A stretch of DNA of 64,000 bases from a candidate division WOR-3 bacterium (lineage in GTDB: Bacteria > Hydrothermota > Tepidihabitantia > SM23-42 > JAOAFX01). The notes beneath the pieces were generated by a model, which searched no databases, was not told the DNA's origin, and saw only the letters and a program-made list of their open reading frames with translations. Within the stretch, counting starts at the first letter, position 1. Every line of letters starts with the position of its first letter. The translations under genes and the position numbers were made by a program. The DNA lies in NCBI GenBank assembly GCA_039802005.1, contig JBDRVV010000001.1, positions 1 through 64,000 of the forward strand. Direction: 5' to 3'. Shown piece by piece: positions 32,999-58,200 of this stretch.

Positions 32999-35647
32999 AT
33001 GAAGAAGTTATTTGTATTGTTAGGCATTACAGGGTTATTGCTGGCATCTGATTTTATCCAAATAGATAAGATACAGGATATCGCCAGCAGGTTTGTAAAC
33101 CAGAGATATGGCACTGGATATATTCTTTACAGTGTAATTCCATATTATGGTGTTGATGAACAGCCAAATGCCTATGGTTTAACATTTGCGAATGCTGAAC
33201 AGGATTTGATTACAGTTATAATGGGGGCGAGATACACAACTTCACCGATAGGTGAGGTATATAAGGGAAGTCCACATTGCGAAAAATTTTATAATAAAGC
33301 CTTGGAAAAAGTTAGAAAAAATTTTCAAGGCGAACCTGTCTTCAAGAAGTATTACTATTTTGGACCGGGGGAAGAGTACGCAGGATTTGAGATAGATAAT
33401 AAAAAGGTCCTGATAAATGTCTTAAATTCGCAAATCAGAACCGGTGAAGATATGGTAAGAGTCAAAGCCGACCCAGTTTTAGAAAAAATTACGAGAGAAA
33501 AATGGAGTCGGTATTTGAATACATATGAGTTTGTAACCCGACAGGGTAATTATATTGATTCAGTTCCATTTATTGATTGGGTCTATGGTTGCTCACCCAC
33601 TGCTGCTTCGATGATGTTCTGGTATTGGGATTATCGTAATTATGGCAAACTTGTTGACCATTTCTATACCCACTGGGATACACCGGAAAACGAATGGAAT
33701 GATTGTGCCAATACCAATCGTGAACTTGCCCTGGCAATGAATACAGATACACTTACTGGCGGTACATATATCGGTAGCATTGCTCCGGGAATGATAACGG
33801 TTGCGAATTCATATAATGGTTATTCTTTCAGTGCAACGACTTCTCCACAAGGTGGTTACTGGAATCAATGGGTGTTTTCTTATTTGAAGGCAGAGATAGA
33901 TGCCCAGAGACCATGCCACTGGAATGTGCTCCAGTACTGGTATCCACCGATGAGTGATTATATAAATCACTCGGTCACCGGTGTCGGATATGAGATTACA
34001 AGTAATGATACATTCGTAATTGTTCATACAACATGGGGTAATGATGAGCCATTGTGGCCACTCGGAACATATTATAACGGAGTCTATTCTTATGATTATG
34101 TAGTAAGTCTTGTTCCCGGCGGTTCAAATCCCAATAATGTCTTTCTGGATTATCCAAGAGGTGGCGATGTTTATAATCTACCTATAATGTTTAAGAACCT
34201 GAAATATGCGATTCGCTGGCATACGACCGGAAGTGATATAAGTTATCTAAAACTCTGGTGGTCCAAGGGAAATGATGGGGATGGTTATGATTCTTTGCGC
34301 TGGACTTTAATCGCCAACAATGTACCCAATACTGGAAAATATATCTGGACCTGCCCGACACTCAGCTGTTCTTTAAGAGTAAATATTTCGGCAATGAATG
34401 CCAGTAATGTAAGACTCGCTGCAGATGGTAGTTTTGGTAGGTCTCGGGTTGTGGAATTGAACCATTCAGCAAATGTCAATCTTATTGGGCATTATGATAC
34501 ACCAGTATGGGCAAATGACCTTGTTATAATCGGTAATTACGCTTATATCACAGATGGTACAGGAGGTTTGCAGATAGTTGATATTAGTGATTCTACACTT
34601 CCTGAACCGGTTAATAAAGTAACCTTACCAGGAAATTCATATGCAATTGCCGGAACATCTCAGTATCTTTATATTGGGGATCGTGAAGACACTTTGAGAA
34701 TTTTATCTCTTTCAAACCCAACCAATCCTGTTCAGGTAGGAAAATTGGCAATGGGTGATGATGTTCTTGGCTTGTTTGTGAATGGCAGCAGGGTTTATGT
34801 GGCTGCACGCTCCCAGGGGCTTGTGATTGTTGATGTCCAGAATCCTGCTAACCCTGTGATATTGGGAACATTTAATACAAGCGGCTTTGCTTATGATGTG
34901 GTTGTAGATAATAATTACGCCTATGTTGCCGATGCAACAAAGGGTGTAAGGATAATAGATGTTTCAACACCATCAAATCCAGTTGAAACTGGATTTTATG
35001 ATACGAATGGAGTAACATACGGAGTTGCAAAACACGGCAGCTATCTTTATGCTGCAGATGGTAATCCAGGAATTAAGATCTTTGATGCCTCAAACCCTGA
35101 TACCCTTCTCCTTTTAGGTTCACTTGATACCCCAACTTCAGCAACAGGAATTCAGTATTATAATAACCATGTATTTGTAGCAGATGGGGCATTGGGTGGA
35201 TTAAGGGTGATAAATGTTTCAAACCCATCTTCACCTTCAGAGGTTGGCTATATACTCTCTATGAGTACGGTAAATTCTGTCTATCTGAGAAATGGGTTGG
35301 TTTATCTACCAGACGGTAGCACGGGGTTGCTCATAATAAAACAGGATATCGTGGGGATTGAAGAAAATAAACAAATGTCTGTAATTACTTCTTTAAAAAT
35401 AATGCCTCAGCCTGTAAATCAGAAAAATAGTGTAATTATCAGATTCACAGTAGAAAGAGAGTCTATGGGTAAGATTGAAATTCTTGATATTTCAGGAAGG
35501 GTTTTAAATACAGTTTATCAGGGAGGATTCAATAAAGGCAAAAATGAGTTCCTGTGGTTACCAGACGGGATTGCATCGGGTGTATATTTTGTCAGAGTCA
35601 AGACCGATGCAGAAACGATGATAGGTAAGATGCTTATAATAAAATAA
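32999..35647 (+). CDS. Secreted C39-like cysteine protease with LVIVD beta-propeller and sorting domain
   Basis: This 882-residue protein begins with a signal peptide (KLFVLLGITGLLLAS). Residues about 185-375 look like a C39-type papain-fold domain: the nucleophile Cys in VYGCSPTAASMMFWYWD and the His in INHSVTGVGYE, then an Asn-containing TTWGNDEP. Residues about 490-780 hold at least six LVIVD-type repeats (GLQIVDISDST, GLVIVDVQNPANP, GVRIIDVSTPSNP, GLRVINVSNPSSP), predicted to form a beta-propeller. The last 80 residues are a sorting domain (KIEILDISGRVLN ... ASGVYFVRVKT). It is probably a surface protease or toxin-like enzyme; the substrate is unknown. Confidence 0.85.
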   Translation: MKKLFVLLGITGLLLASDFIQIDKIQDIASRFVNQRYGTGYILYSVIPYYGVDEQPNAYGLTFANAEQDLITVIMGARYTTSPIGEVYKGSPHCEKFYNKALEKVRKNFQGEPVFKKYYYFGPGEEYAGFEIDNKKVLINVLNSQIRTGEDMVRVKADPVLEKITREKWSRYLNTYEFVTRQGNYIDSVPFIDWVYGCSPTAASMMFWYWDYRNYGKLVDHFYTHWDTPENEWNDCANTNRELALAMNTDTLTGGTYIGSIAPGMITVANSYNGYSFSATTSPQGGYWNQWVFSYLKAEIDAQRPCHWNVLQYWYPPMSDYINHSVTGVGYEITSNDTFVIVHTTWGNDEPLWPLGTYYNGVYSYDYVVSLVPGGSNPNNVFLDYPRGGDVYNLPIMFKNLKYAIRWHTTGSDISYLKLWWSKGNDGDGYDSLRWTLIANNVPNTGKYIWTCPTLSCSLRVNISAMNASNVRLAADGSFGRSRVVELNHSANVNLIGHYDTPVWANDLVIIGNYAYITDGTGGLQIVDISDSTLPEPVNKVTLPGNSYAIAGTSQYLYIGDREDTLRILSLSNPTNPVQVGKLAMGDDVLGLFVNGSRVYVAARSQGLVIVDVQNPANPVILGTFNTSGFAYDVVVDNNYAYVADATKGVRIIDVSTPSNPVETGFYDTNGVTYGVAKHGSYLYAADGNPGIKIFDASNPDTLLLLGSLDTPTSATGIQYYNNHVFVADGALGGLRVINVSNPSSPSEVGYILSMSTVNSVYLRNGLVYLPDGSTGLLIIKQDIVGIEENKQMSVITSLKIMPQPVNQKNSVIIRFTVERESMGKIEILDISGRVLNTVYQGGFNKGKNEFLWLPDGIASGVYFVRVKTDAETMIGKMLIIK

Positions 35648-35748: not shown

Positions 35749-37353
35749 ATGAAGAAAGTATTAACATTTATTGGTCTAATGTGTATATTTGTTTGGGCAA
35801 CTGTAGTGCCAGGAAATGTTGATAAGGCAAAGATGGATGATGGGACTGGTTCGTGTGATAGGTTTGTACCAGTGATGACAACCAGAGACATTGTAGTTGC
35901 AGATTCGTCAGCGAATCAATATTGTATGTGGACACAACAGCAGGAATGTCTTGCCTATAACCCAACCGACGAATATATTGAATTTGTCTGCAGAAATTTT
36001 GCAGTTGGTAATAATCTTGATGTCTGGCAGAATGATAAAACATTCAGTGGTGCGTGGACCGATGAGAATGCCTATACTGCACAGCTTGGTGGTGCAAGGT
36101 ATCCACATTCAATTGCTTCGGTTGATGGACAGGGACCGCATATTTCAGCACCGGTCCTCATATCTGGTGCCTGGGGAGCAATGATGGGGCAATATGAGAG
36201 TGGCGGCTGGTTCTCATCACTCTGGGATAATCCGGTCGACCTCTCGGGGAATGTAGGAACCCATAAAAACGATGGTCATCAACTCCCCAATGGAAATATC
36301 CTGTTTATTGGCGTTACAGGGAGTTATGACATTCTCTACAGAACCTACAACACCGATTTGAGCCAGCAACTTGCCAGCGGAACCGTTGCACCAGCAACAT
36401 CCTATTTCTGGGGGTTTGATGTCAATGGTGGAACTGCCTATGTATTCTGGTATGACGATAATTTGAATGTTTATTACAAAACCACGACCGATGGTATCAA
36501 CTGGAGTGCAACCCAGACATATAATTTGGTCTGGCCACAGCCATTCACCCAGAATGTTTTCTATTGGGGACAGATGGCGGTTACTGATGCGGGAAATCCA
36601 ATTCTTGTGTTTGATATAATTGATGGTAGCGATGCCGAGTATCCTTACGTTGGTAAAGTTTATGTTTCAACTGCCTCTGGTCAACCCTGTACTGAGGTTG
36701 GTGTAACAACATCTGGCGCTGAGAATTTCTATCCTACAGTCGCTGCCGGTGGTAATTATGTTGTTGTTTTATTTGGTGAGGCGAGAGGTGGTACAGGTAC
36801 TAACACATTCTGGGATGTCTATTACAACTATTCAATAGATAATGGAACAACCTGGGCTACACCAATAAACCTTACTCAGAATATAACCGACCATAATAAT
36901 TGTCTCTGGCAGATTGCCAAAAGAGTCGACCCAGTTGGCAATGGTCAATTTTTCTTTGCATTTGGTTGTTCTATATCTTCGCCATTGGATGATCTTTATG
37001 CCCTTATCCAGAGCAATACTGCTGCAGCCTCACGTTGGTATGTTGGTAGAAATCCAATAATTGGTATTGCTGAGAACAAGACCGAGACTCCAAAGAAACT
37101 TGCACTCAATATTGCACCGAATCCAGTTCGTAGCCAGGCTGGTATTTCCTATGCATTACCAAAATCCGGCAATGTATCCATTACCCTTTACAGTGCGGAT
37201 GGTAGACTTGTTAGAACGATTGACCAGGGTTATAAGAATGCTGGGTTCTATACTACAACAATTGATACCCGCGAACTTGCCAACGGTGCCTATGTGGTTG
37301 TGTTGAAGACTGATAACAAGAATCTCTCCGGCAAACTCGTTATCACCCACTAA
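35749..37353 (+). CDS. Secreted beta-propeller-like protein with C-terminal sorting domain
   Basis: This 534-residue protein has an N-terminal signal peptide (VLTFIGLMCIFVWA). Repeated blocks resembling sialidase-type propeller strands (NGTAYVFWYDDNLNVYYKT, WDVYYNYSIDNGTTW) fill residues about 60-430. It ends in a textbook type A sorting domain: IAPNPVRSQAGISYALP, VSITLYSADGRLVRT and ANGAYVVVLKT, ending KLVITH. No catalytic residues are recognisable. AAAGGAG before the ATG and a strong terminator after the stop frame the gene. Confidence 0.8.
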   Translation: MKKVLTFIGLMCIFVWATVVPGNVDKAKMDDGTGSCDRFVPVMTTRDIVVADSSANQYCMWTQQQECLAYNPTDEYIEFVCRNFAVGNNLDVWQNDKTFSGAWTDENAYTAQLGGARYPHSIASVDGQGPHISAPVLISGAWGAMMGQYESGGWFSSLWDNPVDLSGNVGTHKNDGHQLPNGNILFIGVTGSYDILYRTYNTDLSQQLASGTVAPATSYFWGFDVNGGTAYVFWYDDNLNVYYKTTTDGINWSATQTYNLVWPQPFTQNVFYWGQMAVTDAGNPILVFDIIDGSDAEYPYVGKVYVSTASGQPCTEVGVTTSGAENFYPTVAAGGNYVVVLFGEARGGTGTNTFWDVYYNYSIDNGTTWATPINLTQNITDHNNCLWQIAKRVDPVGNGQFFFAFGCSISSPLDDLYALIQSNTAAASRWYVGRNPIIGIAENKTETPKKLALNIAPNPVRSQAGISYALPKSGNVSITLYSADGRLVRTIDQGYKNAGFYTTTIDTRELANGAYVVVLKTDNKNLSGKLVITH

Positions 37354-39432: not shown

Positions 39433-40053
39433 TTATTTAATCAGTCCAAGCCAGGTGCCAAAAAGAAATTGTAATCTGCCAATTAATAAAGATAGCCGTG
39501 CCATTACGGTATAACCAAAGGAGGCGCCGAAACCCACCATAATAAAAATAATACCGACATAAGAAACCGGCTTAAGAATACCTTTGTGCTCTCTTGAGAA
39601 GAAGAAAAAGAATATCGTCGCAAGAACACCGATAAATATCAGAATCGCCCATAGTCCCTGCTGCCAGTTGGCAAATAAATGGGGATAGACGACTGTACCC
39701 TGGATTTGTTTAATCACATCTGCCTGTATTATTGCGGGAATGCTTACGCCTGAAGAAAAACCCAATGCGACTGCAATCGGAATTCTTACAAGCCAGGATA
39801 ATTTGGGGATGAATCTACAGAAATAGAATAGGCCAATAATCATTGGAATTAACACAAGATAATTTCCGCCCTGTAAGGGCATTATCAATCTTGGTGTCAA
39901 AATGAGATGCCAGGTTACGGCAATCGCATAGCCATTTGCAACACCAACGAATAAATGTTCACAGAATCTATAAAATGGATTCTCTTTATACAGAAAAGAG
40001 AGAATCCCAATCGTCAAAAATGCACCAATCCATACCCAGGGGTCATGACTCAC
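39433..40053 (-). CDS. Cassette A gene 4: conserved multi-helix membrane protein
   Basis: A 206-residue membrane protein with about six or seven helices. I set the start at GTG 40053, behind GGAGG, which gives VSHDPWVWIGAFL and matches the paralogue at 44146-44787 (MNISLDPWVWISALL); a start at 40122 would add residues absent there. The two copies share long blocks, above all RHLFVG-type ANGYA, RIPKLSWLVRIPI-like and GYTVMAR.SLLIGRLQFL near the C-terminus. It overlaps the upstream gene by 11 bp. I do not know the family. Confidence 0.75.
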   Translation of the reverse strand: MSHDPWVWIGAFLTIGILSFLYKENPFYRFCEHLFVGVANGYAIAVTWHLILTPRLIMPLQGGNYLVLIPMIIGLFYFCRFIPKLSWLVRIPIAVALGFSSGVSIPAIIQADVIKQIQGTVVYPHLFANWQQGLWAILIFIGVLATIFFFFFSREHKGILKPVSYVGIIFIMVGFGASFGYTVMARLSLLIGRLQFLFGTWLGLIK

Positions 40054-40915
40054 GGGTCCTCCTTGTTGCAAAATAACCAATATTGCCAATGACAACAAGA
40101 ATAAGTATCGTAAGGTGAGCAATTGACTGAGAACTCATTCCCTTTGTCGCAGGTGTGGGACCGGTAAGATTATATTTTGTGTGCACAAGGTATTCATATT
40201 CAGAGGCACCCTTTAACCCTGCAATCATTCCACTCATCTGTCCGGTCTGTAGGAATGGATAAAAATCCGGGGCTGTAACTGCTGTTGCACCTGAACCGAC
40301 CTTAACCCCAAATCTTGTGTTTGCATAAACGACCCAGGATTGGGGTATTGCGCTTCCTGCAATTGAAACAATAATGCCAATGTCATTATAATTTTTTATT
40401 TTCTTCATCATTTCAAGAGAGGCCGTTCTATTTTTGTAATAATCAGCGGGAAATGCCTGGCTGATATCAGAACCCATTCTCAATACTGCTGCAAGCCATA
40501 AAGGCGGAAATCCCAAAAAGACATAATCCCTTCCGTATATTAAGGAATCAGCATTGGTCATTGCTTGGCTATTGAATTCTTTGGTTACCTGGTCAAGTCC
40601 TTGTTTAGCAAGACCTGGACCCTGAATATAAGATGTCATTACGAGGACAGGAATTTTCCGTGCGAAGGCATGTCGTAAAAGGGCGATAAACATCGGATGG
40701 AGTTCGGGCATTGTCTGGGGGTCATAGTCAGCCGAGATTAAAATTCCCTGTGCTTCAGGGTCAATCTCTTCAATGACATCAAATAATTTCTGGGTATAAG
40801 GCATTACATTGGTCTTTATGCGAAAAGGAAATATGAGGGGAATCAATACCGATAGCCCAACGAGCAGGAATACAATCCTTCTATCAATCTTCAATAAATA
40901 TTCCCAGAACTTCAT
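40043..40915 (-). CDS. Cassette A gene 3: conserved protein with two membrane anchors
   Basis: This 290-residue protein has one helix at the N-terminus (residues 13-30, RIVFLLVGLSVLIPLIF), an alpha/beta domain of about 220 residues and one helix near the C-terminus. The domain contains LISADYDPQTMPELHPMFIA, ALLRHAFARKIPVLVMT, YGRDYVFLG, MKKIKNYND and YLQTGQMSGMIAGLKGA, all conserved in the paralogue at 44784-45647. Alternating hydrophobic strands and helices suggest a Rossmann-like or ClpP-like fold, but no catalytic motif is certain. Function unknown. Confidence 0.75.
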   Translation of the reverse strand: MKFWEYLLKIDRRIVFLLVGLSVLIPLIFPFRIKTNVMPYTQKLFDVIEEIDPEAQGILISADYDPQTMPELHPMFIALLRHAFARKIPVLVMTSYIQGPGLAKQGLDQVTKEFNSQAMTNADSLIYGRDYVFLGFPPLWLAAVLRMGSDISQAFPADYYKNRTASLEMMKKIKNYNDIGIIVSIAGSAIPQSWVVYANTRFGVKVGSGATAVTAPDFYPFLQTGQMSGMIAGLKGASEYEYLVHTKYNLTGPTPATKGMSSQSIAHLTILILVVIGNIGYFATRRTRES

Positions 40916-40968
40916 ATCTATACTCCTTTTTATTTAACCATTTAACCAATTATTATTTAACCAGCTTT

Positions 40969-41649
40969 TCATTTCCCACCCCCAAGCCAGTTTCTTTCAA
41001 TACCGAGCATAATCTTTAATGATGTGGCGGCGACTCCAAGTCCTACACCAAAGAGGATTCCCCTCTTTGATGCAGTGTTAGGCACATCCATTATCCACTG
41101 GGCAAGATGGGGAAGTTTGGGAGAAATATAATAACCAATCGGCACAACGCCAACCATAACGATAAAGGCTGCGATAAGTAAGAGCGTCGCTTCAAATGTT
41201 CTTGCGCGGAATGCACGATATGCTGCGGATGACATAAAGAATGCTAATAGCGCAAACATTGTTCCACCAAGGGGTGTGATTATATTGTCATATATCGTCT
41301 GGATTGAATATTTTATGACAATTAATTTATTTCCTATCATAATCTGTGGTTGAACTGGTAAAGGTCCCTTTCCTTCCATTCCACCGAATAATCCAATGAT
41401 TGCGACAATCAATATAGAAATGAGTGTAACCCAGGAATATTGCCAGTGCTCCCTTTTTCTTTGAATCTTGTCAATGTGGTGGTTTATTAGACTTCCGAGT
41501 CCAAGGACCAATGCAAACGAGGCAATAATTCCAAGCCAGTCCAGGAAGTTCATATAGATTTCTTTGGATATTTTATGGGGAATGAAGAATTGGATAAGCA
41601 TGGCAATGCCAATTATTAAAACAATCATTAAAGGGATTGTTCTCTGCAT
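40969..41649 (-). CDS. Cassette A gene 2: conserved five- or six-helix membrane protein
   Basis: This 226-residue protein begins MQRTIPLMIVLIIGI and has about five or six helices. Blocks shared with the 219-residue paralogue (45644-46303) include FALVLGLGSL, HWQYSWVTLIS, LPHLAQWIMDVPN (LPSFAQWIMDVPN in copy B) and a C-terminal GIERNWLGGGK. A Shine-Dalgarno AAGGAGG precedes the ATG. The family is not one I can name; the strong conservation across the whole chain suggests a fixed part in a complex. Confidence 0.75.
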   Translation of the reverse strand: MQRTIPLMIVLIIGIAMLIQFFIPHKISKEIYMNFLDWLGIIASFALVLGLGSLINHHIDKIQRKREHWQYSWVTLISILIVAIIGLFGGMEGKGPLPVQPQIMIGNKLIVIKYSIQTIYDNIITPLGGTMFALLAFFMSSAAYRAFRARTFEATLLLIAAFIVMVGVVPIGYYISPKLPHLAQWIMDVPNTASKRGILFGVGLGVAATSLKIMLGIERNWLGGGK

Positions 41650-41659
41650 AAAACCTCCT

Positions 41660-41678
41660 TTTCAGCCAGAGGCTGAAA
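41660..41678. repeat. Palindrome within cassette A
   Basis: TTTCAGCCAGAGGCTGAAA, an 8-bp stem with a 3-nt loop, lies directly before the Shine-Dalgarno of cassette A gene 2 (minus strand). It is probably a REP-like palindrome or a translation-affecting hairpin. Confidence 0.6.
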
Positions 41679-41761
41679 CATCGATTTAAACGAATATTGA
41701 AACGGATTCACACGGATATTTTTCTTTCTGTATAGCCATTTAGTTAATTTACTAAACTTAT

Positions 41762-43879
41762 TCATTGTATGTTAAACAAATTAAATACTGGAATCCCTAA
41801 TTTCAGTAATGCAAGGAATGTTGCTATAATCATAATCCCTGCAATAACAAGTTTACAATAATCCTGGCTCTTCAATGCGGCAAGGAGTGTCGGATTCCTT
41901 GAGATATATGCACTCGCTGCATATAGTTCTTCACCAATAAGTGTATAATCACAGGCAGTTATAAAAAACGGCAGCTGTGTAACTGCATCAGTCCCGGCAA
42001 TCTGTATTGCCCCGGTTGATGCGCCGCTTTCTGCCATAATCAGGGATTCTGCCCAGAACATACCCACTAAGAAATTTGTTGCCGGTTTTTCTCTTATCAT
42101 TATTCCGCTCACTGCTGCAGCATAAGCAAACTGGGAATCGGTTACATAATAGACACTATCCGGATTGAATGCATCAGGCCTTCCCACTTTATTATATGAT
42201 TCTTTTACAACTTCCCGTGCTACAGTAAAAACAATTGGGTCACGGTTTGGAACTATTAAAGGTGTATTATACTGAGCAGTCTTTTTGGCAACTTCACTGA
42301 GGATATTTAAAGAGGCAATTGTTGCAACATCGCTGATATCAGAAGTTCCAGGAACATATAATATCGGTCTTCCCATTTCGGTTGCCCTACCCACTGCCTC
42401 ATCAATTGCTGACAATCCTGCGATGCGCCGCACGAAGATATCTTTTCCAGCTTTTTTTGTATATTCCATAAAAAATGTGACTAAAAAGATGAAGATGACA
42501 AGACCAATCAGGGCATTAATTCTACCGGTATGGAACCACTGGGGCGAGGCAATAACATAAGGCGTTGTCTCAGAAGAAATTTTTTCTCCTTCTTTTGTTA
42601 TTGCGACTATGCGATATGCATAAGGTATTCCATTGTAAATACCAACTCTATCTTGAAAGGTGTTTACATGTGTCCCCAGTCTTGCATAAACACCATAATT
42701 ACCGCTATCCTTTTCTGCCCGCATTACATAATAGCCCAAAAATTCAGGTGGTTCTTTTGATTTTTTCCACGAAAGAGAGACCATCCTCTTTTCATCAATG
42801 ATTGTATCCTTTTCAATTTTGAATGGAATTGAGACTCCTTTTACTGCCCTTGCTTCATAAATATATTCTTTATCTGGTTCGGCTGTACCATCAAGAAATT
42901 TTTCTTCATCCGGTGCAGTGTAATCAACATATTTGAAATTTTCAGCACTATCTTTTTCAGCACGATAAATAAGGGTCAGGTCATAATTCTGACCCACTAC
43001 TTTTGGGTTCAGTTTCCACTCTATCTTTATTACCCTGCCGGTCATTCCTATTGAATCCGCAACAATCTTTGCCGGCATTATAATCTGATAATTTTTTTCA
43101 ATGTAGTAATGATATTCAATATCTTTTTTTACAATTGTATCGGTGTAAGAAAAGGTATCCTTGAAAGCAGCAATAGAATCATAGGCAAGGCGTAGTAATG
43201 CATAACTCTTTATCATATCAAAATTCGGAGATGGTTCCCAGTTTATCTTAAATCCCCCACCTTCATCATTTGGAATATCATAGGCATATACAAATTTGGG
43301 AGTGCCAATCGTAAAGAGTGGGGCGGATGGTTCTGAAAATATCCGTTCGTTATCTTTTAGCCCTGCGACCTTATAAAAATATTTTACCCCATCCTTCATC
43401 GTTGTATCACGAAAACTATTTTGATATTTATCCACACTGCCGATGAGTTCATAATCACCATTCTTTTCAGTTCGCCAGACTTCGTAGGTCTCGCCAAGGT
43501 ATAAATCGTTTGGCCTTTTCCATTTTATAATAATACTTTTATTAATTGTATCTTTTATAATATGATAACCGATTGAGACAATTTTTAGAAAATTCTTCTG
43601 ATGATTATATTCCTTCATTCTTTCTCTTTTAACTATATCGTAGAGATATTCATTATCAGTCTTGATATTGTTATCAATGAAGATAGTATCCTGAAAGACA
43701 GTCTTTAACAGCGTATATTTTGAGCGGTAGATTTCAAATCTATCTACATCAATATCTTTCTTTATGTCCCAGGTGATTGTAATGCTGATACTATCTTGAT
43801 TTATTATCTTCAAGGCTCTAACACTCTCAGGTGGGTTTAAATTCAAGAGCATAGTTATTATAAAAATGTTATTAAGCAT
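41762..43879 (-). CDS. Cassette A gene 1: fn3-repeat membrane protein with DUF6754 domain
   Basis: A 705-residue protein. After a signal peptide (IFIITMLLNLN) come about five fibronectin type III-like modules (residues about 15-450; PESVRALKI ... FEIYRSKY, YEVWRTEKNGDYELIGSVDK, FLGYYVMRAEKDSG). A transmembrane helix (INALIGLVIFIFLVTFF) leads to a DUF6754-like domain (AGLSAIDEAVGRATEMGRP, DVATIASLNILSEVAKKTAQ, ESGASTGAIQIAGTDA, EELYAASAYISRNP), and a last helix ends the chain. Modules should face the periplasm and DUF6754 the cytoplasm. Start ATG 43879 is chosen by analogy with copy B, two codons inside a GTG. Function unknown. Confidence 0.8.
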   Translation of the reverse strand: MLNNIFIITMLLNLNPPESVRALKIINQDSISITITWDIKKDIDVDRFEIYRSKYTLLKTVFQDTIFIDNNIKTDNEYLYDIVKRERMKEYNHQKNFLKIVSIGYHIIKDTINKSIIIKWKRPNDLYLGETYEVWRTEKNGDYELIGSVDKYQNSFRDTTMKDGVKYFYKVAGLKDNERIFSEPSAPLFTIGTPKFVYAYDIPNDEGGGFKINWEPSPNFDMIKSYALLRLAYDSIAAFKDTFSYTDTIVKKDIEYHYYIEKNYQIIMPAKIVADSIGMTGRVIKIEWKLNPKVVGQNYDLTLIYRAEKDSAENFKYVDYTAPDEEKFLDGTAEPDKEYIYEARAVKGVSIPFKIEKDTIIDEKRMVSLSWKKSKEPPEFLGYYVMRAEKDSGNYGVYARLGTHVNTFQDRVGIYNGIPYAYRIVAITKEGEKISSETTPYVIASPQWFHTGRINALIGLVIFIFLVTFFMEYTKKAGKDIFVRRIAGLSAIDEAVGRATEMGRPILYVPGTSDISDVATIASLNILSEVAKKTAQYNTPLIVPNRDPIVFTVAREVVKESYNKVGRPDAFNPDSVYYVTDSQFAYAAAVSGIMIREKPATNFLVGMFWAESLIMAESGASTGAIQIAGTDAVTQLPFFITACDYTLIGEELYAASAYISRNPTLLAALKSQDYCKLVIAGIMIIATFLALLKLGIPVFNLFNIQ

Positions 43880-43914
43880 AAACACCCCTTTTTAAAATTT
43901 TAAATATATTTCAA

Positions 43915-43972
43915 TGTAGGGCAAACCTTTAGGTTTGCAATTATTTATGCAAGGCTAAAGCCTTGCCCTACA
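43915..43972. repeat. 58-bp compound palindromic repeat between cassettes
   Basis: Ten-bp perfect terminal inverted repeats (TGTAGGGCAA / TTGCCCTACA) enclose two hairpins, GCAAACCTTTAGGTTTGC and GCAAGGCTAAAGCCTTGC. It can fold into a cruciform-like two-arm structure. It looks like a composite REP/BIME-type element. Confidence 0.8.
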
Positions 43973-43996
43973 ACTTTAAAAAAACTTAACCCTGTG

Positions 43997-44012
43997 GTCG
44001 GATTTATCCGAC
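43997..44012. repeat. Short palindromic repeat
   Basis: GTCGGATTTATCCGAC, a 7-bp stem. Its complement, GTCGGATAAATCCGAC, matches the atpD-atpC palindrome in the central GATAAATC and differs in two paired stem positions. The rest of the 44013-44145 spacer shows nothing recognisable. Confidence 0.6.
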
Positions 44013-44145
44013 AGACTCTTAAGTATATTTATTATATTGGAAAAATCAAGTAAAGAATTGAATTATACTTCTTTAAACCAGCGTCCCAACCCAAACCTAC
44101 TCAATTATATTTTTAGGTATTTAGGTATTTTGGACTTTTAGGTAT

Positions 44146-44787
44146 TTATTTTATTATACCAAGCCAGGGACCCAATAGGAATTGCAGTCTGCCAATCAAT
44201 AGAGAGACCCTTGCCATAACTGTATAACCGAATGCTGCGCCGAAGCCAATCATAATAAATATTATGCCGATGCGGGATGTGACCTTTAGCACACCTTTGT
44301 GTTCTTTAGAAAAGTAGAAATATGAGAGCGTGCACAGCACACCAATAAATAAGATTATTGACCAGATAATTCCTGCATTCCCGGCATGCCAGGCAAGAAA
44401 GTTTTCTTTGGTAAGAATTGTTCCCTGAATCTGTTTGATGATATTCGCCTGAATACCTGCCGGGATTGAGGCACCCGTATAATAACCAATGGTAATGCCG
44501 ATTGGTATGCGCACGAGCCAGGAGATCTTCGGTATGAAGCGTGTGAAATATAGCACACCGATTATGAGTGAGATGATATAAAGCAATTTACCCTGTCGGA
44601 ATAATGGGTCAAAGAGTGAAGGAACCAAGATATTGTGCCAGTAGAATGTAACTGCATAGCCATTTGCTGCACCTACAAAGACATGTTCGGCAAATTTATA
44701 AAATGGGTTATCTTTGTAAAGGAATGAAAAAATTGCAAGGCTTAGAAGTGCACTGATCCATACCCAGGGGTCTAATGAGATATTCAC
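44146..44787 (-). CDS. Cassette B gene 4: conserved multi-helix membrane protein
   Basis: This 213-residue paralogue of the protein at 39433-40053 has about six or seven helices. Conserved landmarks are DPWVWISALLSLAIFSFLYK, VFVGAANGYAVTFYW, ISWLVRIPIGITIGY, ANIIKQIQGTI and GYTVMARVSLLIGRLQFLLG. The start overlaps the upstream gene by 4 bp (ATGA). It ends cassette B; no terminator is obvious before cassette A. Confidence 0.75.
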   Translation of the reverse strand: MNISLDPWVWISALLSLAIFSFLYKDNPFYKFAEHVFVGAANGYAVTFYWHNILVPSLFDPLFRQGKLLYIISLIIGVLYFTRFIPKISWLVRIPIGITIGYYTGASIPAGIQANIIKQIQGTILTKENFLAWHAGNAGIIWSIILFIGVLCTLSYFYFSKEHKGVLKVTSRIGIIFIMIGFGAAFGYTVMARVSLLIGRLQFLLGPWLGIIK

Positions 44788-45647
44788 TTCTGCCTCCTTT
44801 TTATGAAATAACCAATATTACCAATGATAATAAAAGCCATCATTACAAGATGGGCATAGGTAAGTGAAGGTAATGCCTCACTTGCCTTTCGGCGTTTATA
44901 GATATTTAAACGCGATTCCACAAGTTCTTCATATTCTGCCGCACCCTTCATTCCCACCATCAGTCCGCTGAATTGCCCGGTCTGGAGATAAGGATAATAA
45001 TCGCTCGCTGATACCGCAGTGCAGCCAACGCCAACCTTTAGTCCGAAGCGATTCTGGGCATAACCAACCCACCATAATGGAGGGTCGCCACTGCTTATTG
45101 ATATCAACAATTCTACCTGATTATAATTTTTTATCTTCTTCATCAAGGGGAGTGTATCGGTCTGATTTCCATAATAATCCTTTTTGTAAACATTCGTAAT
45201 ACTCTCACCCATTCCAAGTATAGGCACAAGGGGTGGTGGTTGCCAGCCCAAAAAGACATAATCCCTTCCATATATTATACTATCTTCATAAGTTTTTGCA
45301 GTTGAATTATATTCGCTAATGACCTGGTCAAATGCGGACTTGGCAAGTCCCAATGGCTGGACATAGAGACTCAATCCCAGGACTTTGATTCGTTTATTAA
45401 ATGCATGTCTCAAAATTGCCAGTGCCATTGGTTCCAATTCTGGTTGTGTCTGCGGGTCATAGTCAAAGTCAATCATTAAGACTTTATCAGAATGGATTGT
45501 ATCAACTGCAGTGAATAACTTCTCAACTGGTGGCATTACCCGGACATGCTGGGCAGAAGGAATCACCAGGGGTAATATCACAACTACTGCCAGGACAAGA
45601 TAGATTATTCTTCGGTCAATCTTCAACATTAAATCAAATATCTTCAT
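44784..45647 (-). CDS. Cassette B gene 3: conserved protein with two membrane anchors
   Basis: This 287-residue paralogue of the protein at 40043-40915 has an N-terminal helix (IIYLVLAVVVILPLVIP), a middle domain with MIDFDYDPQTQPELEPMAL, AILRHAFNKRIKVLGLS, YGRDYVFLGWQP, MKKIKNYNQ and YLQTGQFSGLMVGMKGAAEY, and a C-terminal helix (YAHLVMMAFIIIGNIGYFI) followed by a basic tail (KRRQK). It overlaps both neighbours by 4 bp. Function unknown. Confidence 0.75.
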   Translation of the reverse strand: MKIFDLMLKIDRRIIYLVLAVVVILPLVIPSAQHVRVMPPVEKLFTAVDTIHSDKVLMIDFDYDPQTQPELEPMALAILRHAFNKRIKVLGLSLYVQPLGLAKSAFDQVISEYNSTAKTYEDSIIYGRDYVFLGWQPPPLVPILGMGESITNVYKKDYYGNQTDTLPLMKKIKNYNQVELLISISSGDPPLWWVGYAQNRFGLKVGVGCTAVSASDYYPYLQTGQFSGLMVGMKGAAEYEELVESRLNIYKRRKASEALPSLTYAHLVMMAFIIIGNIGYFIKRRQK

Positions 45648-46303
45648 TCACCACCTCCAAGCCAGGAGCGTTCAATACCTAAAAGAATCTTTAATGCAGT
45701 AGCAAGAGAACCAAGGGCAATCCCGAATGCTATGCCCCGTTTGCCGGCGACATTCGGCACATCCATTATCCACTGGGCAAAAGAAGGAAGTTTTGGTGAA
45801 ATCTGGTTACCGAGGGGAAGGATTCCAATCATTACAATAAACGCCGAGAGCAAAAGCAGGGTTGCCTCGGTTGAGCGGGCACGGAAAGAGCGGTATGCTG
45901 CAGATGCCATAAAGAAAGAAAGTAGCGCAAACATTGTAGCACCGAGCGGAACTTCTACATTGAGATAGATTGTTTGAATATCAAAATGGAAATTACCAAT
46001 CTTTGTAGGCAGTGGTCCGGTACCAGCAACACCGCCGAAGAGCCCAATTATTGAGGTGAGAAAGAATGTTATCAAAAGAACCCAGGAGTATTGCCAGTTT
46101 TCCCTATGGTGCTGGATTTTGTCAAAATGGACACGCAGGAGACTTCCCAAACCTAAGACAAGGGCAAAGGCAGCAAGGATTCTCAATAAATCATTACGCA
46201 GAAATTCATCGGTATGCTGGACTGAAGGATGGGGAACGATGAATGGAATTATACCCAGAATTCCAAAGATAAAAACGAGTATTAAAGGAAATGTTCTCTG
46301 CAT
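45644..46303 (-). CDS. Cassette B gene 2: conserved membrane protein
   Basis: This 219-residue paralogue of the 226-residue protein of cassette A starts with the same MQRT motif and ends GIERSWLGGGE. It shares FALVLGLGSLL, MFALLSFFMASAAYRSFRAR and LPSFAQWIMDVPN with its partner. The region between helices 3 and 4 is shorter than in copy A. Confidence 0.75.
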   Translation of the reverse strand: MQRTFPLILVFIFGILGIIPFIVPHPSVQHTDEFLRNDLLRILAAFALVLGLGSLLRVHFDKIQHHRENWQYSWVLLITFFLTSIIGLFGGVAGTGPLPTKIGNFHFDIQTIYLNVEVPLGATMFALLSFFMASAAYRSFRARSTEATLLLLSAFIVMIGILPLGNQISPKLPSFAQWIMDVPNVAGKRGIAFGIALGSLATALKILLGIERSWLGGGE

Positions 46304-46313
46304 ATTTTCTCCT

Positions 46314-47390
46314 TTATTTAAATAGAGCCAAGACCGGGAATTTTGTTAATAATCCAATAATTGAGGCACATATTAAAAGCCCGGCAATTATCAATTTTCC
46401 CCAGTCTTCACCCTTTATTGCACCCATTAAGAGTGGTTCTCGTGAGATATAGGCACTTGCAGCATAGAGTTCTTCACCGATCAGTGTATAATCACAGGCA
46501 GTTACAAGAAATGGCAACTGGGCAAGTGAATCAGTTCCGCTGATCTGAATCGCACCAGTTGAGGCACCGGTCTCAGCAAGAATTAGTGATTCAGCATAGA
46601 ATGTTCCAATGAGAAAGTTTGTTGCGGGTCTTTCCCTCAACATTATTCCATCAAGTGCGGCCGCATAGGCAAACTGGGAATCGGTAACAAAATAGATATT
46701 CTCCGGGTCAAATGCATCAGGCCTGCCGACCTTTGTATAAGATTCTTTCACAATTTCCCTTGCTACAGTATAAACAATCGGGTCATAATGGGGATTTATC
46801 AACTTTGTATTATACTGGGCAGTCTTTTTTGCGACTTCGCCAAGGATATTTAAAGATGCAATCGTTGCAATCTGTTCAATATAGCCAATACCAGGGCAAT
46901 ATAGTATTGGTTTTCCCATTTCAGTTGCCCTGCCTACCGCTTCATCAACTGCCTGGAGTCCGGAGATCTTTCTTATATAAAGTTCCTTCCCTTTACGTGC
47001 CTGGGAAATGAAATAAAGAATTATGCCACCGAGAATAATAAGGGCAATGATGATATTGATTTTATTGCGGTCTATCCATTGGGGAGCGCTCGTTGCTGGA
47101 GAAGATATTTCTGAAAATGCCCTCAATGTATCCTTTAGTGCTGCTATTTTATAATAATATTTCTTTCCATCTTCAGTCTGGTCATCAATTGAGTTTCTGC
47201 TTTTGCCAATAAAACCTATCTTTTCAAAATCCGCTCCATTCTCACTCCGGTAGATTTCATAACCATCAATAATGGCATCATCCGGAGATAACTGCCATTC
47301 TATTATTAAAACACCACCGCCATCATCAGGTGCATCATAAGCCCGCACCTGAGCGGGTGGGGAGAGGGTAAATAATAGGATTAAAAACAT
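46314..47390 (-). CDS. Cassette B gene 1: single-fn3 membrane protein with DUF6754 domain
   Basis: A 358-residue paralogue of the 705-residue protein with only one fibronectin module (residues about 10-105; VRAYDAPDDGGGVLIIEWQL, DGYEIYRSENGADFEKI) after a short signal peptide. A helix (INIIIALIILGGIILYFI) and a DUF6754-like domain (SGLQAVDEAVGRATEMGKP, TGASTGAIQISGTDSLAQ, EELYAASAYISREP) follow, then a C-terminal helix. It differs from copy A mainly in the number of outer modules, which suggests the cytoplasmic part is the conserved core. AAAGGGG precedes the ATG. Confidence 0.8.
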   Translation of the reverse strand: MFLILLFTLSPPAQVRAYDAPDDGGGVLIIEWQLSPDDAIIDGYEIYRSENGADFEKIGFIGKSRNSIDDQTEDGKKYYYKIAALKDTLRAFSEISSPATSAPQWIDRNKINIIIALIILGGIILYFISQARKGKELYIRKISGLQAVDEAVGRATEMGKPILYCPGIGYIEQIATIASLNILGEVAKKTAQYNTKLINPHYDPIVYTVAREIVKESYTKVGRPDAFDPENIYFVTDSQFAYAAALDGIMLRERPATNFLIGTFYAESLILAETGASTGAIQISGTDSLAQLPFLVTACDYTLIGEELYAASAYISREPLLMGAIKGEDWGKLIIAGLLICASIIGLLTKFPVLALFK

Positions 47391-47418: not shown

Positions 47419-47847
47419 TCAATCGGTTGCGAAATGCGTTTCATGATCTTCTGACGGTTTCTTCTTTCGCGTTCCAAAAGATTGCCAGACAACGCTAAGG
47501 TTATATAACTGTCTAGAGATTTTATCGTAAATATCAATGAGTTCATTGACTAACTCAGGTTGAATTTTGTATACATCACGCACATGACTTAAAGAGACGA
47601 TAGTTTCATTACTTTCTCCAGCTGCATCATCAAGATACTTCTGGAAGGCTTTGGGTTGGTGTCTTTTTGCGAATCCTTCAGCAATTAGACGCGGAACTGC
47701 TTTAGTTGAGCGGCGCAACTGATCAACAAGGTCAAATTGCTCACATTTGGGAACTTTGGGAATAATTTCTGTCAAAATGATTACTGATGCTTTGTACGAA
47801 TTCTGATAAACCTCAAGGTCTGTAAAACTTCTTATTTTTTTACGCAT
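47419..47847 (-). CDS. Four-helix-bundle (S23/TIGR02436-like) protein within inverted repeats
   Basis: This 142-residue protein has the family's start (RSFTDLEVYQNSYKASVIIL), the middle motif DQLRRSTKAVPRLIAEGFAKR and YLDDAAGESNETIVSLSHV. Homologues occur in 23S rRNA intervening sequences, as Avd-type helpers of diversity-generating retroelements, and as stand-alone genes; no rRNA or reverse transcriptase is near. The last six residues (THFATD) are encoded by an inverted repeat whose partner lies upstream of the start. The protein is a basic, possibly nucleic-acid-binding bundle of unknown role. Confidence 0.85.
   Translation of the reverse strand: MRKKIRSFTDLEVYQNSYKASVIILTEIIPKVPKCEQFDLVDQLRRSTKAVPRLIAEGFAKRHQPKAFQKYLDDAAGESNETIVSLSHVRDVYKIQPELVNELIDIYDKISRQLYNLSVVWQSFGTRKKKPSEDHETHFATD
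47423..47438 (+). repeat. Inverted repeat, left end, around the four-helix-bundle gene
   Basis: TCGGTTGCGAAATGCG. Its inverted partner at 47875-47890 differs by one base. Together they bracket the gene. Confidence 0.7.
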
Positions 47848-47874
47848 TACAACTCCCTTTTAGCGAAACCGTTG

Positions 47875-47890
47875 CGCTTTTCGCAACCGA
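47875..47890 (-). repeat. Inverted repeat, right end, around the four-helix-bundle gene
   Basis: Minus strand TCGGTTGCGAAAAGCG, 15 of 16 identical to the left copy. It also forms a local hairpin GTTGCG / CGCAAC and lies between mazG-like and four-helix-bundle genes. Confidence 0.7.
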
Positions 47891-47903
47891 CAAACGAAAT
47901 TGT

Positions 47904-48191
47904 CTATTTTTCTCTGCAAATACAATTTTTTCTTCTGCATTTAGGGCAACCACGGATATACTTCTCCATCGCTTTTTCTGCATTAATTCCAAGAATTGAA
48001 CCCACGGACAAAAGCCAGGCAAGGCAATCTGCGAATTCTTCGTTTATCATCTTTTTGTCTTTTTTCCGAATTGCCCTTGCCAGTTCACCAATCTCTTCAA
48101 TTAGCCAGTTAAAGGTCTTATCAAGACCCCTTTTTGAGTCCTTTTTAAAATATATCTTTTCAATGAGTTTCTGGTATTCATTTAAATCCAT
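47904..48191 (-). CDS. MazG-like nucleotide pyrophosphohydrolase
   Basis: This 95-residue single MazG-type domain has the metal-binding EEIGE motif (WLIEEIGELARAI) and the second motif EEFADCLAWLL. These hydrolyse nucleoside triphosphates to monophosphates, often for housecleaning. The chain ends in CPKCRRKNCIC, an extra Cys cluster that may bind a metal and is not part of the usual fold. The ATG at 48191 is chosen over a GTG two codons earlier, because GGGAG lies at the proper distance. Confidence 0.85.
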   Translation of the reverse strand: MDLNEYQKLIEKIYFKKDSKRGLDKTFNWLIEEIGELARAIRKKDKKMINEEFADCLAWLLSVGSILGINAEKAMEKYIRGCPKCRRKNCICREK

Positions 48192-48212
48192 ACCCACTCC
48201 CTATAATTAAAA

Positions 48213-49505: not shown

Positions 49506-51149
49506 CTAAAATTTTAATGTTGCTGAAATTCTCCAGTTTTCTAAATTGGTGAGTTCACTGAATCCCATTATATCAATCTGAAGGTTATCTGTGACATTCC
49601 AGCCAATTCCATAGAAATAATCGGTATTTGGTGTATTTACTTTTTGTGTTTCATCAGAGCCGATTGGTGCTGGATTAGGGTCGATAAGGTCTTCGGTAAC
49701 CGCACCTGTGCCATCAACAGTTCTCGTCCTTTGCGGTTCATACTGAACGAGTTCTGTAACTGTGGTAATATCATCCATTGTATATGTATGCCTTGCACCA
49801 AGCCTGAAGGTAAGTTGCGGGAAGAGATTGAATTCTACACCGACCGGCAGTTCAATTGTTCTTGATACACCGGTGACTTTGGTCATCCAGGTCTCACTTG
49901 ACCAGACAGTAGTCACATAGTCATCAGGGTCAAATGAGATCCCGTCATTATCATCATAGACCCTTACTGATACCGTTGTATCTTTGGCAAGCGTAGAATC
50001 AAAGACGGAATTATTTATAAACATTGCGCCAAAACCGATTCTTAATTTCTCTGAGATTTTAAATAAGTGTTTTGTGCCAATCTGAAATCCCTTTATGTTA
50101 GAAGAGCCATTATAATAGGTAAAGGTATTGATTGTATCCCACGTGAACTGTGCCATAATGTTATCCCTTGTTTTGTAGTAATGGTCTATTGCATCATCAC
50201 CGTATCCGAGCGACTGGGTAAAGAAACCGAGATAATATCTTCCCTGAATATTTTCATTATAATTGTAAAAGGCACGCAGGTTTACAGTGATGATATTGCC
50301 TGATTGTTTTTGATTTGATGAGTCGAGGATATTGGCTCGGGTATAGAATGTATTTGTATCTGCAGGCTGGGTATAGATTGCTGAATCACCAGCTATATTT
50401 GCGTTATATCCATAACCAAGAAATCCAAAACCAGCAAGGAGTCCAATTGAGAGTTTTTCCATATCCTTCCAGATACTGAATAAAATATCATTCTCACCAT
50501 AATTATTATTTTCATCACCAGAGAATTTTGCGCGGTTGATCAGTGTGAATGAATTTGTAGTGAGGTCTTCTATTGTGTAATCATAGGTAAAGTTATTATC
50601 AGGGTCTGTAGAGATATATTTGCTATTTACCCTTAGATAGCCAAGTCCGAGGCGGAGATTCTCAAGTTTATAACCCAATCCTATGAACATATTGTTATCT
50701 TTTATCTGTTCATAGGCAGAACGGGTCTCGGTCTCAATTGTCCTGCGGTCAAATATACCATTATTATCGGTATCATCCCAGTCAATGGTTGTCAATTCTC
50801 CATCACCATAAATTTGATTACCATTTGGATCAAATAGGCCAGTTGCCAGCGCAGTTTTATCAACGCTGTGGTCATAGACCATTCCGGGATAAAATTTGCC
50901 AAAGTTTGTCGTACCACCTATAAGGATATATGGGAGACTACCGTTAGAAAAGAGATTCTCATTACCGCTGACAAAGTTTGATAGACTCGTCCATAACCGA
51001 GAACCCTGTATTTCACAGATCCTTGCCGGGTCAAAGAGCAGGTCATAATCATCTTCAAATAGACCAGCAGTGGACTGGTATCTAAAAGACTCGTAGACCA
51101 GTCCAGAAGACAGCGATAACATTATCGCTATTATCAAGGCATATCTCAT
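49506..51149 (-). CDS. Predicted outer-membrane beta-barrel protein
   Basis: A 547-residue protein with a signal peptide (MRYALIIAIMLSLSSGLVY) and alternating amphipathic strands throughout (LRLGLGYLRVN, LSIGLLAGFGFLGYGYN, LTFRLGARHTYTM), ending in ISATLKF with the terminal Phe of barrel proteins. Its specific role is unknown. AAGGAGG before the ATG. It is the first gene of a two-gene unit with the Ig-like lipoprotein. Confidence 0.7.
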   Translation of the reverse strand: MRYALIIAIMLSLSSGLVYESFRYQSTAGLFEDDYDLLFDPARICEIQGSRLWTSLSNFVSGNENLFSNGSLPYILIGGTTNFGKFYPGMVYDHSVDKTALATGLFDPNGNQIYGDGELTTIDWDDTDNNGIFDRRTIETETRSAYEQIKDNNMFIGLGYKLENLRLGLGYLRVNSKYISTDPDNNFTYDYTIEDLTTNSFTLINRAKFSGDENNNYGENDILFSIWKDMEKLSIGLLAGFGFLGYGYNANIAGDSAIYTQPADTNTFYTRANILDSSNQKQSGNIITVNLRAFYNYNENIQGRYYLGFFTQSLGYGDDAIDHYYKTRDNIMAQFTWDTINTFTYYNGSSNIKGFQIGTKHLFKISEKLRIGFGAMFINNSVFDSTLAKDTTVSVRVYDDNDGISFDPDDYVTTVWSSETWMTKVTGVSRTIELPVGVEFNLFPQLTFRLGARHTYTMDDITTVTELVQYEPQRTRTVDGTGAVTEDLIDPNPAPIGSDETQKVNTPNTDYFYGIGWNVTDNLQIDIMGFSELTNLENWRISATLKF

Positions 51150-55287: not shown

Positions 55288-58200
55288 ATGTTAGGATATT
55301 ATCGGTTTCCAAGTATAAATAATGATACAATTGTTTTTGTTAGTGAAGATGATTTGTGGATTGTGCCACTAAAGGGTGGTGTTGCCCATCGTTTAACATC
55401 AAATTTGGGTAGAATTGGAAATTGTAGTATTTCTCCTGATGGTGAATATATTGCATTTACAGGTAGGGAGGAAGGGTCTAACGAGGTATATTGTATTTCA
55501 ATCAAAGGTGGTATCGCAAAAAGGCTTACCTTCCTCGGTGCAAATACAACTGTGCGGGGCTGGACAAGGGATGGGGATAGAATCATATTTGCAAGTGATA
55601 CAGGACAATGGTATCCAGGATTTACCTATATTTATACCGTTGATAAAAACAAGGATATCCCTAAGATAGTTCCGGTTGGACCGGCCAGGACGATTTCATA
55701 TGGACCCAAAAAAGGTGTTGTCATAGGTAGAAATACTGCTGACCCTGCTCGCTGGAAGAGATACCGGGGTGGCACCGTTGGCGAGATATGGATTGACCCT
55801 GAGGAAAGAGGTAATTTTAGAAAACTTATAGATATAAAAGGAAATCTTGCTGACCCAATGTGGATTTGTGAGAGGATATATTTTATTTCAGACCACGAGG
55901 GTGTTGGTAATATCTATTCTTGCACAATCCAGGGTAGAGATTTAAAGAGGCACACAGACCATAAAGATTTTTATGTGCGCAATGCCAAGACTGATGGGAA
56001 GAATATTGTTTATCACGCTGGCGGGGACATATATGTGTTATATCCAGAAACGAACCGGGTAGAAAGGGTAAAAATAGATTTTCGGAGTCCCAGGGTTCAA
56101 ACCCAACGCAAGTTTGTGGATGCGGGCAGATACCTTGAAGATTATGCTATCCATCCTGAAGGTGCCCGGGTTTGTGTTACAAGCAGAGGTAAAGTTTTTT
56201 CAATGCCTAACTGGGAAGGGCCTGTGATACAAAATGGTTCAAAACCCGGTGCACGTTATCGGCTTGGTAGATGGCTTTATGACGGTATGAGACTTATCGT
56301 GGTGACGGATGAGAAAGGAGAAGATTCACTGCAGGTTCATTATAATGATGGAAAGCGTATAGTTAATTTGCCTCCGATGGATATTGGAAGACCAATTGAA
56401 CTTGAACCTTCGCCGAAAGAACCTCTCGTTGCTTTAACTAACCATAGAAACGAATTGATTGTTGTGAACTTGAAGTCAAAAAAGCGCATAATTGTTGATA
56501 AAAGCAAATATCGGAGAATAACCGGGGTAACCTGGTCTTCGGACGGTATCTGGATTGCATATAGTTATCCTGATTCTGAAAGGACATCCTGTATCAAACT
56601 TGCAAATGTCATTGAAAAGAAGACTTATTATGCTACAAAGAGCGTTCTTTACGACTTTGCTCCAAGTTTTGACCCTGATGGGAAATATCTGTATTTTTTA
56701 TCGGCACGCCATTTTGATCCAGTCTATGATACAATGCAATTTGAGTTAAGTTTTCCCTGTCATATAAAACCTTATCTGGTTCTGTTGAGAAAAGACCTTA
56801 CCGACCCATTTAAATATACAAAGTCAGCACCCCAGGGGATGGATATGGGTTTTGACATCCCGAAAATAGAAAAAGGTAAAAAGCAGGTAAAGAAAATAAA
56901 TATTGATATTGAGGGTATTACCGATAGAGTGGTTCCATTACCTGTCGCCCACGGTATCTATAAACAAATCAAGGGGATAAAAGATAAAGTATTATATACG
57001 ATTTTTCCTATCACTGGTGGAAAGGCAGAGTGGTTTACAGATGAAATACCCGCAAATGGCACTCTTGGATTCTATGATTTTAAAGAGCAGAAAGAAGGTG
57101 TTATATTAACTGGTATAACAAATTTCAAGGTTTCGCAGAATAACGAAATAATAATATATCGCGCAAAGGACCGCCTGAGGATTATAAAGCCCATTGAAAA
57201 AATTGAACAGAAACTTGAAAAACAAGCGGTTGGACCCAAGAGCGGTTGGCTCGACCTTTCAAGAATAAAACTTCTTGTTGAACCGAGAATGGAATGGAAA
57301 CAGATGTATCGAGATGCCTGGCGATTGCAACGAGACCATTTCTGGACAAAGGATATGTCAGGTGTGGATTGGAAAAAGGTATATGAAAAATATCTACCAT
57401 TGCTTGATAGGATTGGAACCCGTTCTGAATTTTCTGATTTGATATGGGAAATGCAGGGTGAATTAGGGACTTCGCACGCCTATGAATGGGGCGGTGATTA
57501 TCGTGAAGAACCAAGGTACACACAGGGATTCTTAGGCGCTGACCTTGTATATGACAAAAATAAAAATGCTTACCGAATTATGAAAATTATAAAAGGAGAC
57601 CCCTGGGAGCCATATGCTAAATCACCTTTAATGGGACCTGGTCTGGATATTAAGGAGGGTGATATTCTACTTGAAATAAACGGTGTTGCACTGAGTAAAA
57701 AAATTCAACCCGGTGAGCTTCTTGTTAATCGCGCAAATACTGAAATTACAATAACCATTGCAAATTCCAATGGCAGAAATAAAAGGACATTTTCAATCAA
57801 AACACTTTCTGATGAGTCATCAGCACGGTACCGAGATTGGGTTGAGCATAATCGGGAATTAGTCCACCGATTAAGCAAAAATAAGATTGGTTATGTTCAC
57901 ATTCCTGATATGGGACCCCGGGGTTATGCAGAATTCCACAGATATTTTTTGAGTGAAATAAGATATACAGGATTGATTGTGGATGTTAGATTCAACCGGG
58001 GTGGCCATATCTCACAATTATTGCTTGAGCGATTAAGAAGAAAGAGGATTGGTTATGATATCACGAGATGGGGAACTCCAGAACCATATCCAAATGAATC
58101 GGTTCTTGGTCCAATTGTGGCGATAACCAATGAATATGCAGGTTCTGATGGTGATATATTCAGCCACGGATTTAAATTGTATAAAATTGGTCCATTGATT

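Follow-up and report, generated by a model that had tools for sequence, protein, structure and literature searches.

Do two neighbouring runs of uncharacterised membrane genes in a candidate division WOR-3 bacterium encode one machine that was duplicated as a unit, and what might such a machine do? The question is raised by positions 1 to 64,000 of contig JBDRVV010000001.1 (forward strand; assembly GCA_039802005.1), hereafter the window, in which the initial annotation had picked out two tandem copies, A and B, of a four-gene membrane cassette built around DUF6754 and had proposed that they encode a fixed membrane complex whose genes were duplicated together. As judged from sequence comparison, the four genes form a very ancient set that has been passed on as a unit and is found almost throughout the phylum. 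The four proteins of the cassette very probably form one obligate complex in the inner membrane, and this four-gene membrane machine appears to be previously undescribed: no mention of DUF6754 or of the four-gene cluster was found in the literature, with most subscription papers and all preprints lying outside the search.

The four protein families are labelled D1 (DUF6754), M2 (MQRT), A3 (alpha/beta) and P4 (DPWVW). All eight cassette genes expected in the window were found, all on the minus strand and in a common order, with the members of each A/B pair 49–62% identical:

46314..47390, minus strand: B1 (D1), 358 aa; PF20539, E=2.5e-114; predicted signal peptide, one fibronectin type III (fn3) module, transmembrane (TM) helix, cytoplasmic DUF6754 domain and C-terminal TM helix; AlphaFold2 (AF2) predicted local distance difference test score (pLDDT) 93; class II in the tree
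46437..46964, minus strand: DUF6754 alpha/beta domain of B1, about residues 143-318, from AF2 secondary structure
45644..46303, minus strand: B2 (M2, MQRT family), polytopic membrane protein, 219 aa, from family profile, alignment and hydropathy
44784..45647, minus strand: B3 (A3), 287 aa; predicted TM, extracytoplasmic alpha/beta domain, TM; AF2 pLDDT 94.8, predicted template modelling score (pTM) 0.90; both termini positively charged
44146..44787, minus strand: B4 (P4, DPWVW family), polytopic membrane protein, 213 aa, from alignment
41762..43885, minus strand: A1 (D1), 707 aa; PF20539, E=1.5e-115, and PF00041 fn3; about five fn3 modules, TM, DUF6754 domain, TM
40969..41649, minus strand: A2 (M2), 226 aa; 61% identity to B2
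40043..40915, minus strand: A3 gene of cassette A, 290 aa; 49% identity to B3
39433..40053, minus strand: A4 (P4); 62% identity to B4; probable GTG start at about 40053

Between the cassettes, BLASTP aligned the DUF6754 proteins at 54% identity over 342 aa, the MQRT proteins at 61% over 229, the alpha/beta proteins at 49% over 288 and the DPWVW proteins at 62% over 211. The two window D1 proteins scored 381 and 385 bits against PF20539 (curated cut-off 27 bits), while M2, A3 and P4 of both cassettes matched no Pfam or NCBIfam family above cut-off. For A1, starts at GTG 43885 and ATG 43879 are both possible; the longest open reading frame (ORF) of A4 extends to 40122, with the GTG near 40053 favoured by the P4 alignment. 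The gene overlaps of 4–11 bp noted initially are present at three of the six junctions, namely M2/A3 and A3/P4 of cassette B (4 bp each) and the last junction of cassette A (~11 bp with the GTG near 40053 as the P4 start), but the other three junctions are gaps (10 bp between D1 and M2 in B; 112 and 53 bp in A). The reported difference in outer fn3 modules, about five in A and one in B, was borne out: five separate stretches of the A1 outer region align with the fn3 region of B1 in BLASTP, as would fit five modules there, against the single fn3 in the AF2 model of B1. Recognition of different extracellular partners through these modules, as first suggested, is plausible. Elsewhere in the genome, an 809-aa protein without DUF6754 (L032:1770-4199, contig C2) has an fn3-like stretch in common with D1 (35% over 75 aa).

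Two copies were noted, and two lie in the window, but the genome holds five. The source, a WOR-3/Stahlbacteria metagenome-assembled genome (MAG), carries five DUF6754 genes, each the first gene of a complete D1-M2-A3-P4 cassette, with the remaining three cassettes on contigs C33, C26 and C32, one apiece. All material analyzed here consists of MAGs, in which assembly gaps can mimic absences. Across the phylum, PF20539 was present in 140 of 147 genomes at 1 to 7 copies each, while DUF6754 was detected in none of 14 well-known control genomes, Bacteroides among them. Relatives occur in Zixibacteria, Latescibacterota, Poribacteria, Edwardsbacteria, Eisenbacteria, Fermentibacteria, Coatesbacteria, TA06, CSSED10-310, UBP2, Aegiribacteria and others; this list comes from the best 80 of 568 confirmed matches, and the true range is therefore wider. 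The gene order proposed as fixed recurs much more often than chance would produce, in 117 of 140 D1 loci with enough contig to be read and across WOR-3, Zixibacteria, Latescibacteria, Poribacteria, Eisenbacteria, Coatesbacteria and other lineages, with median gaps of +9, -4 and -1 bp. Several of the 23 loci without the full order adjoin truncated, mis-started or split ORFs. Tandem cassette pairs were seen 19 times, again in several phyla. Searches of phage, plasmid and viral collections returned no match, and the PADLOC anti-phage models matched neither the four subunits nor the candidate partners MutL and c1 described below; a mobile-element, phage, plasmid or defence origin of the cassette was rejected on these grounds.

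The phylogeny of the cassettes points to a single deep division. A concatenated tree of 117 cassettes separates class I (n = 51) from class II (n = 66), and separate trees of D1, M2, A3 and P4 each return the identical split, with 0 of 117 cassettes misplaced. FastTree support for this split was 0.875 for D1, 0.884 for M2, 0.871 for A3 and 0.494 for P4, and 0.978 in a larger D1 tree of 163 sequences. Several phyla are represented in both classes alike, 9 of the 19 tandem pairs combine one class I with one class II cassette, and WOR-3 genomes with exactly two copies (G004, G027, G030, G046 and G054, from five families) have one of each. Because the four gene trees share one split and both classes span several phyla, they are most simply explained by one joint duplication of all four genes before these phyla diverged, with the consequence that two classes arose between which no subunits were swapped afterwards. 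Together with co-occurrence in fixed order, this single deep split in four trees upholds the proposal of a membrane complex duplicated as a unit. It does not make the tandem pair in the window a simple local duplicate: cassettes A and B both belong to class II, the nearest relatives of B are orthologues from other families (L067, L059, L074), a group that does not include A, so the A/B pair is old.

A further argument comes from a lineage in which the genes are no longer linked. In family f23 the operon is broken and only D1 and M2 are still adjacent, M2 lying beside D1 in all four loci read, and the parts have nevertheless been kept: D1 was found in 8 of 8 genomes, P4 in 8 of 8, once each, and A3 in 8 of 8, two of them as contig-edge fragments. 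Because all parts persist despite lost linkage, their retention argues for a function exerted as a set. Loss of A3 and P4 in this family was considered and rejected, their apparent absence being the result of operon splitting. P4 was matched in the absence of D1 in one genome, G009, whose completeness is low (77%).

In several phyla, one or two cassettes are directly preceded by a block of four genes, GcvPB, c2, c0 and c1, of which c0 is a MutL-family ATPase (PF13941, E=1.7e-131). The arrangement GcvPB-c2-MutL-c1-cassette(s) was read at L049:1-16796 and at L071, L103, L117, L130 and L150, and in some of these loci the cassettes are followed by a lipoate-ligase-like gene (named by reading its sequence, with no family search). 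The 373-aa c1 is an undescribed, highly conserved protein: it was detected in 139 of 147 genomes of the phylum, mostly as a single copy, and has only weak matches to barrel-sandwich domains (biotinyl/lipoyl, RnfC), with a match to RraA that is weaker still and sub-threshold. The third member, c2, is a small helical protein without a family. MutL-like actin-fold ATPases are otherwise linked to B12-dependent mutases, and a possible second role for them is at stake here. The four-protein complex probably works together with this MutL module, as suggested by gene order and by a pattern of joint loss. Specifically, both genomes of genus g67 (G126 and G127; 94 and 95% complete) were without D1, A3, P4, c1, c2 and MutL (M2 was not among the families searched), and in same-family genomes (G124, G125, G128 and G129) D1, P4, c1, c2 and MutL were present, as was A3 in 3 of 3 tested. 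The genus thus provides a natural deletion control for the cassette and its partner module. Its POTRA proteins are retained, and loss of the outer membrane as the cause of the absence was rejected for this reason.

Next, we examined the anatomy of the subunits. AF2 models of A3 (mean pLDDT 94.8, pTM 0.90) and B1 (pLDDT 93.0, pTM 0.76) both show alternating strands and helices in a Rossmann-like alpha/beta fold. The A3 domain runs H E H E H E H E H E H E H, followed by a TM helix, and the main elements of the DUF6754 domain come in the same order. Aligned with hhalign, the two profiles reached 4% or less, and reversed profiles scored equally well; for these reasons homology of the two domains is not claimed, no sequence relationship being detectable, and their common descent is offered as a suggestion only. 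The lysine/arginine bias predicts that the two domains lie on opposite sides of the membrane, with positive charges at both A3 termini placing the A3 domain outside, and charges after the first TM helix of D1 placing DUF6754 inside and fn3 outside. The single shared cytoplasmic core first envisaged for the two copies is therefore only partly supported: the DUF6754 domain fits it, but the A3 alpha/beta domain is predicted to lie outside under the positive-inside rule. D1 varies in length mainly in its outer part, with an N-terminal part of 41-487 aa against an interquartile range of 204-219 aa for the C-terminal part. No part matched a known system: there is no sequence relative of A3, M2 or P4 in the PDB, and Foldseek with the full-length DUF6754 protein gave fn3-type matches only, among the best 50 matches listed. 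A relationship of M2 to QmoC was rejected, as one M2 reached 20 bits against a cut-off of 300 and its paralogue did not repeat the match.

The two classes differ in the genes around them. Downstream of class I cassettes in WOR-3 come DUF4388, several small proteins, TolQ, ExbD, ExbD and TonB (9 of 9 class I). Only class II cassettes are directly preceded by an SLBB/polysaccharide-export gene (4/4), and a MazG-type gene is found upstream of class II as well (9/9). These class-specific neighbours hint that the complexes act in the envelope. The class I downstream block itself (L030:11141-16282 and eight more loci) contains four small proteins without a family and may be a second conserved envelope system. 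Within the window, a PF05635 protein (23S rRNA-intervening-sequence type) and a MazG pyrophosphohydrolase (47419-48197) stand immediately upstream of cassette B, and the same two genes are met again ahead of class II cassettes from other families. A 547-aa protein without a Pfam family (49506-51149) is likewise encountered 2-4 genes upstream of class II cassettes (L059, L067, L074, L075), and a Tricorn-type protease with PDZ and S41 peptidase domains is encoded at 55288-58491.

Taken together, we propose that the cassette encodes an obligate complex that acts together with the MutL module, perhaps in the transport or assembly of envelope material; for this explanation as a whole, we put the chances slightly below even. 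The envelope role in particular is tentative, and was chosen because class I cassettes occur with DUF4388 and TolQ-ExbD-ExbD-TonB and some class II cassettes lie beside an SLBB exporter. One conceivable, if speculative, picture is a core membrane machine of many uncultured bacterial phyla, a two-sided complex existing in two ancient classes, with related alpha/beta domains on both faces of the inner membrane and a MutL-like ATPase that would drive or gate it. D1 would present variable fn3 modules outside and its Rossmann-like DUF6754 domain inside, A3 would place a similar Rossmann-like domain outside, and M2 and P4 would form the polytopic membrane core. The MutL/c1/c2 module would engage the cytoplasmic DUF6754 face in an ATP-dependent manner, its state would be relayed via M2 and P4 to A3 and fn3 on the outer face, where the complex would move or assemble envelope or surface material, with paralogues bearing different fn3 stacks possibly serving different clients.

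Several observations weigh against this proposal. Many WOR-3 genomes, the source genome included, have c1 and MutL away from the cassettes. The absence in g67 is one event in one genus, GcvPB-like matches are missing there too (GcvPB adjoins c2), and G129 has both blocks within 26 kb, making a block deletion a possible cause; because the loss is a single event and could in part be such a deletion, the link between cassette and MutL is likely rather than proven. Neighbours vary between lineages, and therefore the neighbourhood does not fix a role. Finally, A3, M2 and P4 returned no fold or sequence relative of known function.

Other explanations account for parts of these data. The complex could be a family of transmembrane receptors, in which an extracellular ligand or surface is bound by the fn3 stack and DUF6754 relays the signal to partners in the cytoplasm, with M2, A3 and P4 shaping the receptor. 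The variation of D1 mainly in its outer part, the up to 7 copies per genome and the DUF4388 genes adjoining class I copies would suit such a role, but we regard it as unlikely, given that the recurrent neighbours included no recognisable kinase, cyclase, response-regulator or chemotaxis gene and that four obligate subunits, kept as a single copy in small genomes (families f22 and f23), better fit a core machine. A membrane-bound metabolic enzyme complex, with cofactor bound to the Rossmann-like domains for glycine, lipoate or B12-type chemistry at the membrane, would explain the repeated presence of GcvPB and lipoate-ligase-like genes near the MutL-c1-cassette block, the absence of GcvPB along with the system in g67, and the many invariant polar residues of D1 and A3. 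This seems quite unlikely: the predicted location of the A3 domain is extracytoplasmic, and nucleotide cofactors are scarce there; no GxGxxG-type nucleotide loop was seen on inspection of the consensus of alignments A2 and A3 and no invariant histidine pair in the M2 or P4 alignments, and the QmoC match, besides being weak, is confined to one M2.

Secretion offers another possible frame, as a window protein (32999-35647), the only one in which this domain was seen, has a Por_Secre_tail domain and a TolQ/ExbD/TonB motor adjoins class I copies, so that the cassette could be a component of a route for cargo with type IX-like sorting tails. Yet a Bacteroides is among the control genomes that are without DUF6754, and the PorLM/GldLM families were unmatched in Pfam and NCBIfam, which leaves this a very improbable account. 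The 32999-35647 protein also has LVIVD repeats, and the protein at 35749-37353 ends in a similar tail by eye. Lastly, operons can move and duplicate as blocks without physical interaction, and the four genes could be unrelated and together only by operon inheritance, forming no physical complex. We consider this remote, since the f23 genes lie in three places yet are kept and no subunit crosses between the classes in any of the four trees. The obligate four-protein complex remains the preferred reading, and as a near-universal, multi-copy complex of a whole phylum and a dozen or so related lineages it would mark a large gap in what is understood of the construction of these uncultured cells.

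Among the closest known systems are TolQ/ExbB-ExbD-TonB complexes, with such genes lying downstream of class I cassettes in WOR-3, but the cassette differs from them in that D1, M2, A3 and P4 have no MotA_ExbB, ExbD or TonB match (for MotA_ExbB and ExbD, none in any of the eight window proteins in Pfam and NCBIfam) and class II is not adjacent to such genes. The best compact fold neighbours of the A3 domain are Rossmannoid molybdenum-cofactor carriers (PDB 6y01 and 2iz5; Foldseek probability 0.91, TM-score over target 0.51, E=0.036, 9% identity), a likeness at the level of fold only; unlike these carriers, A3 is membrane-anchored and predicted to be extracytoplasmic. The partner c0 is a member of the MutL/GlmL ASKHA ATPase family by its PF13941 match, but it is ~600 aa long, does not reach the GlmL and Or-4 equivalog cut-offs and, as far as seen, has c1, c2 and the cassette as neighbours instead of a B12-dependent mutase. 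The first gene of both cassettes is a clear member of Pfam PF20539 (E ~1e-114), an entry that covers one domain of unknown function and takes in neither M2, A3 and P4 nor the division into two classes nor the partner module. What had been a single such domain hence becomes a defined system of four subunits and two classes with three candidate cytoplasmic partners.

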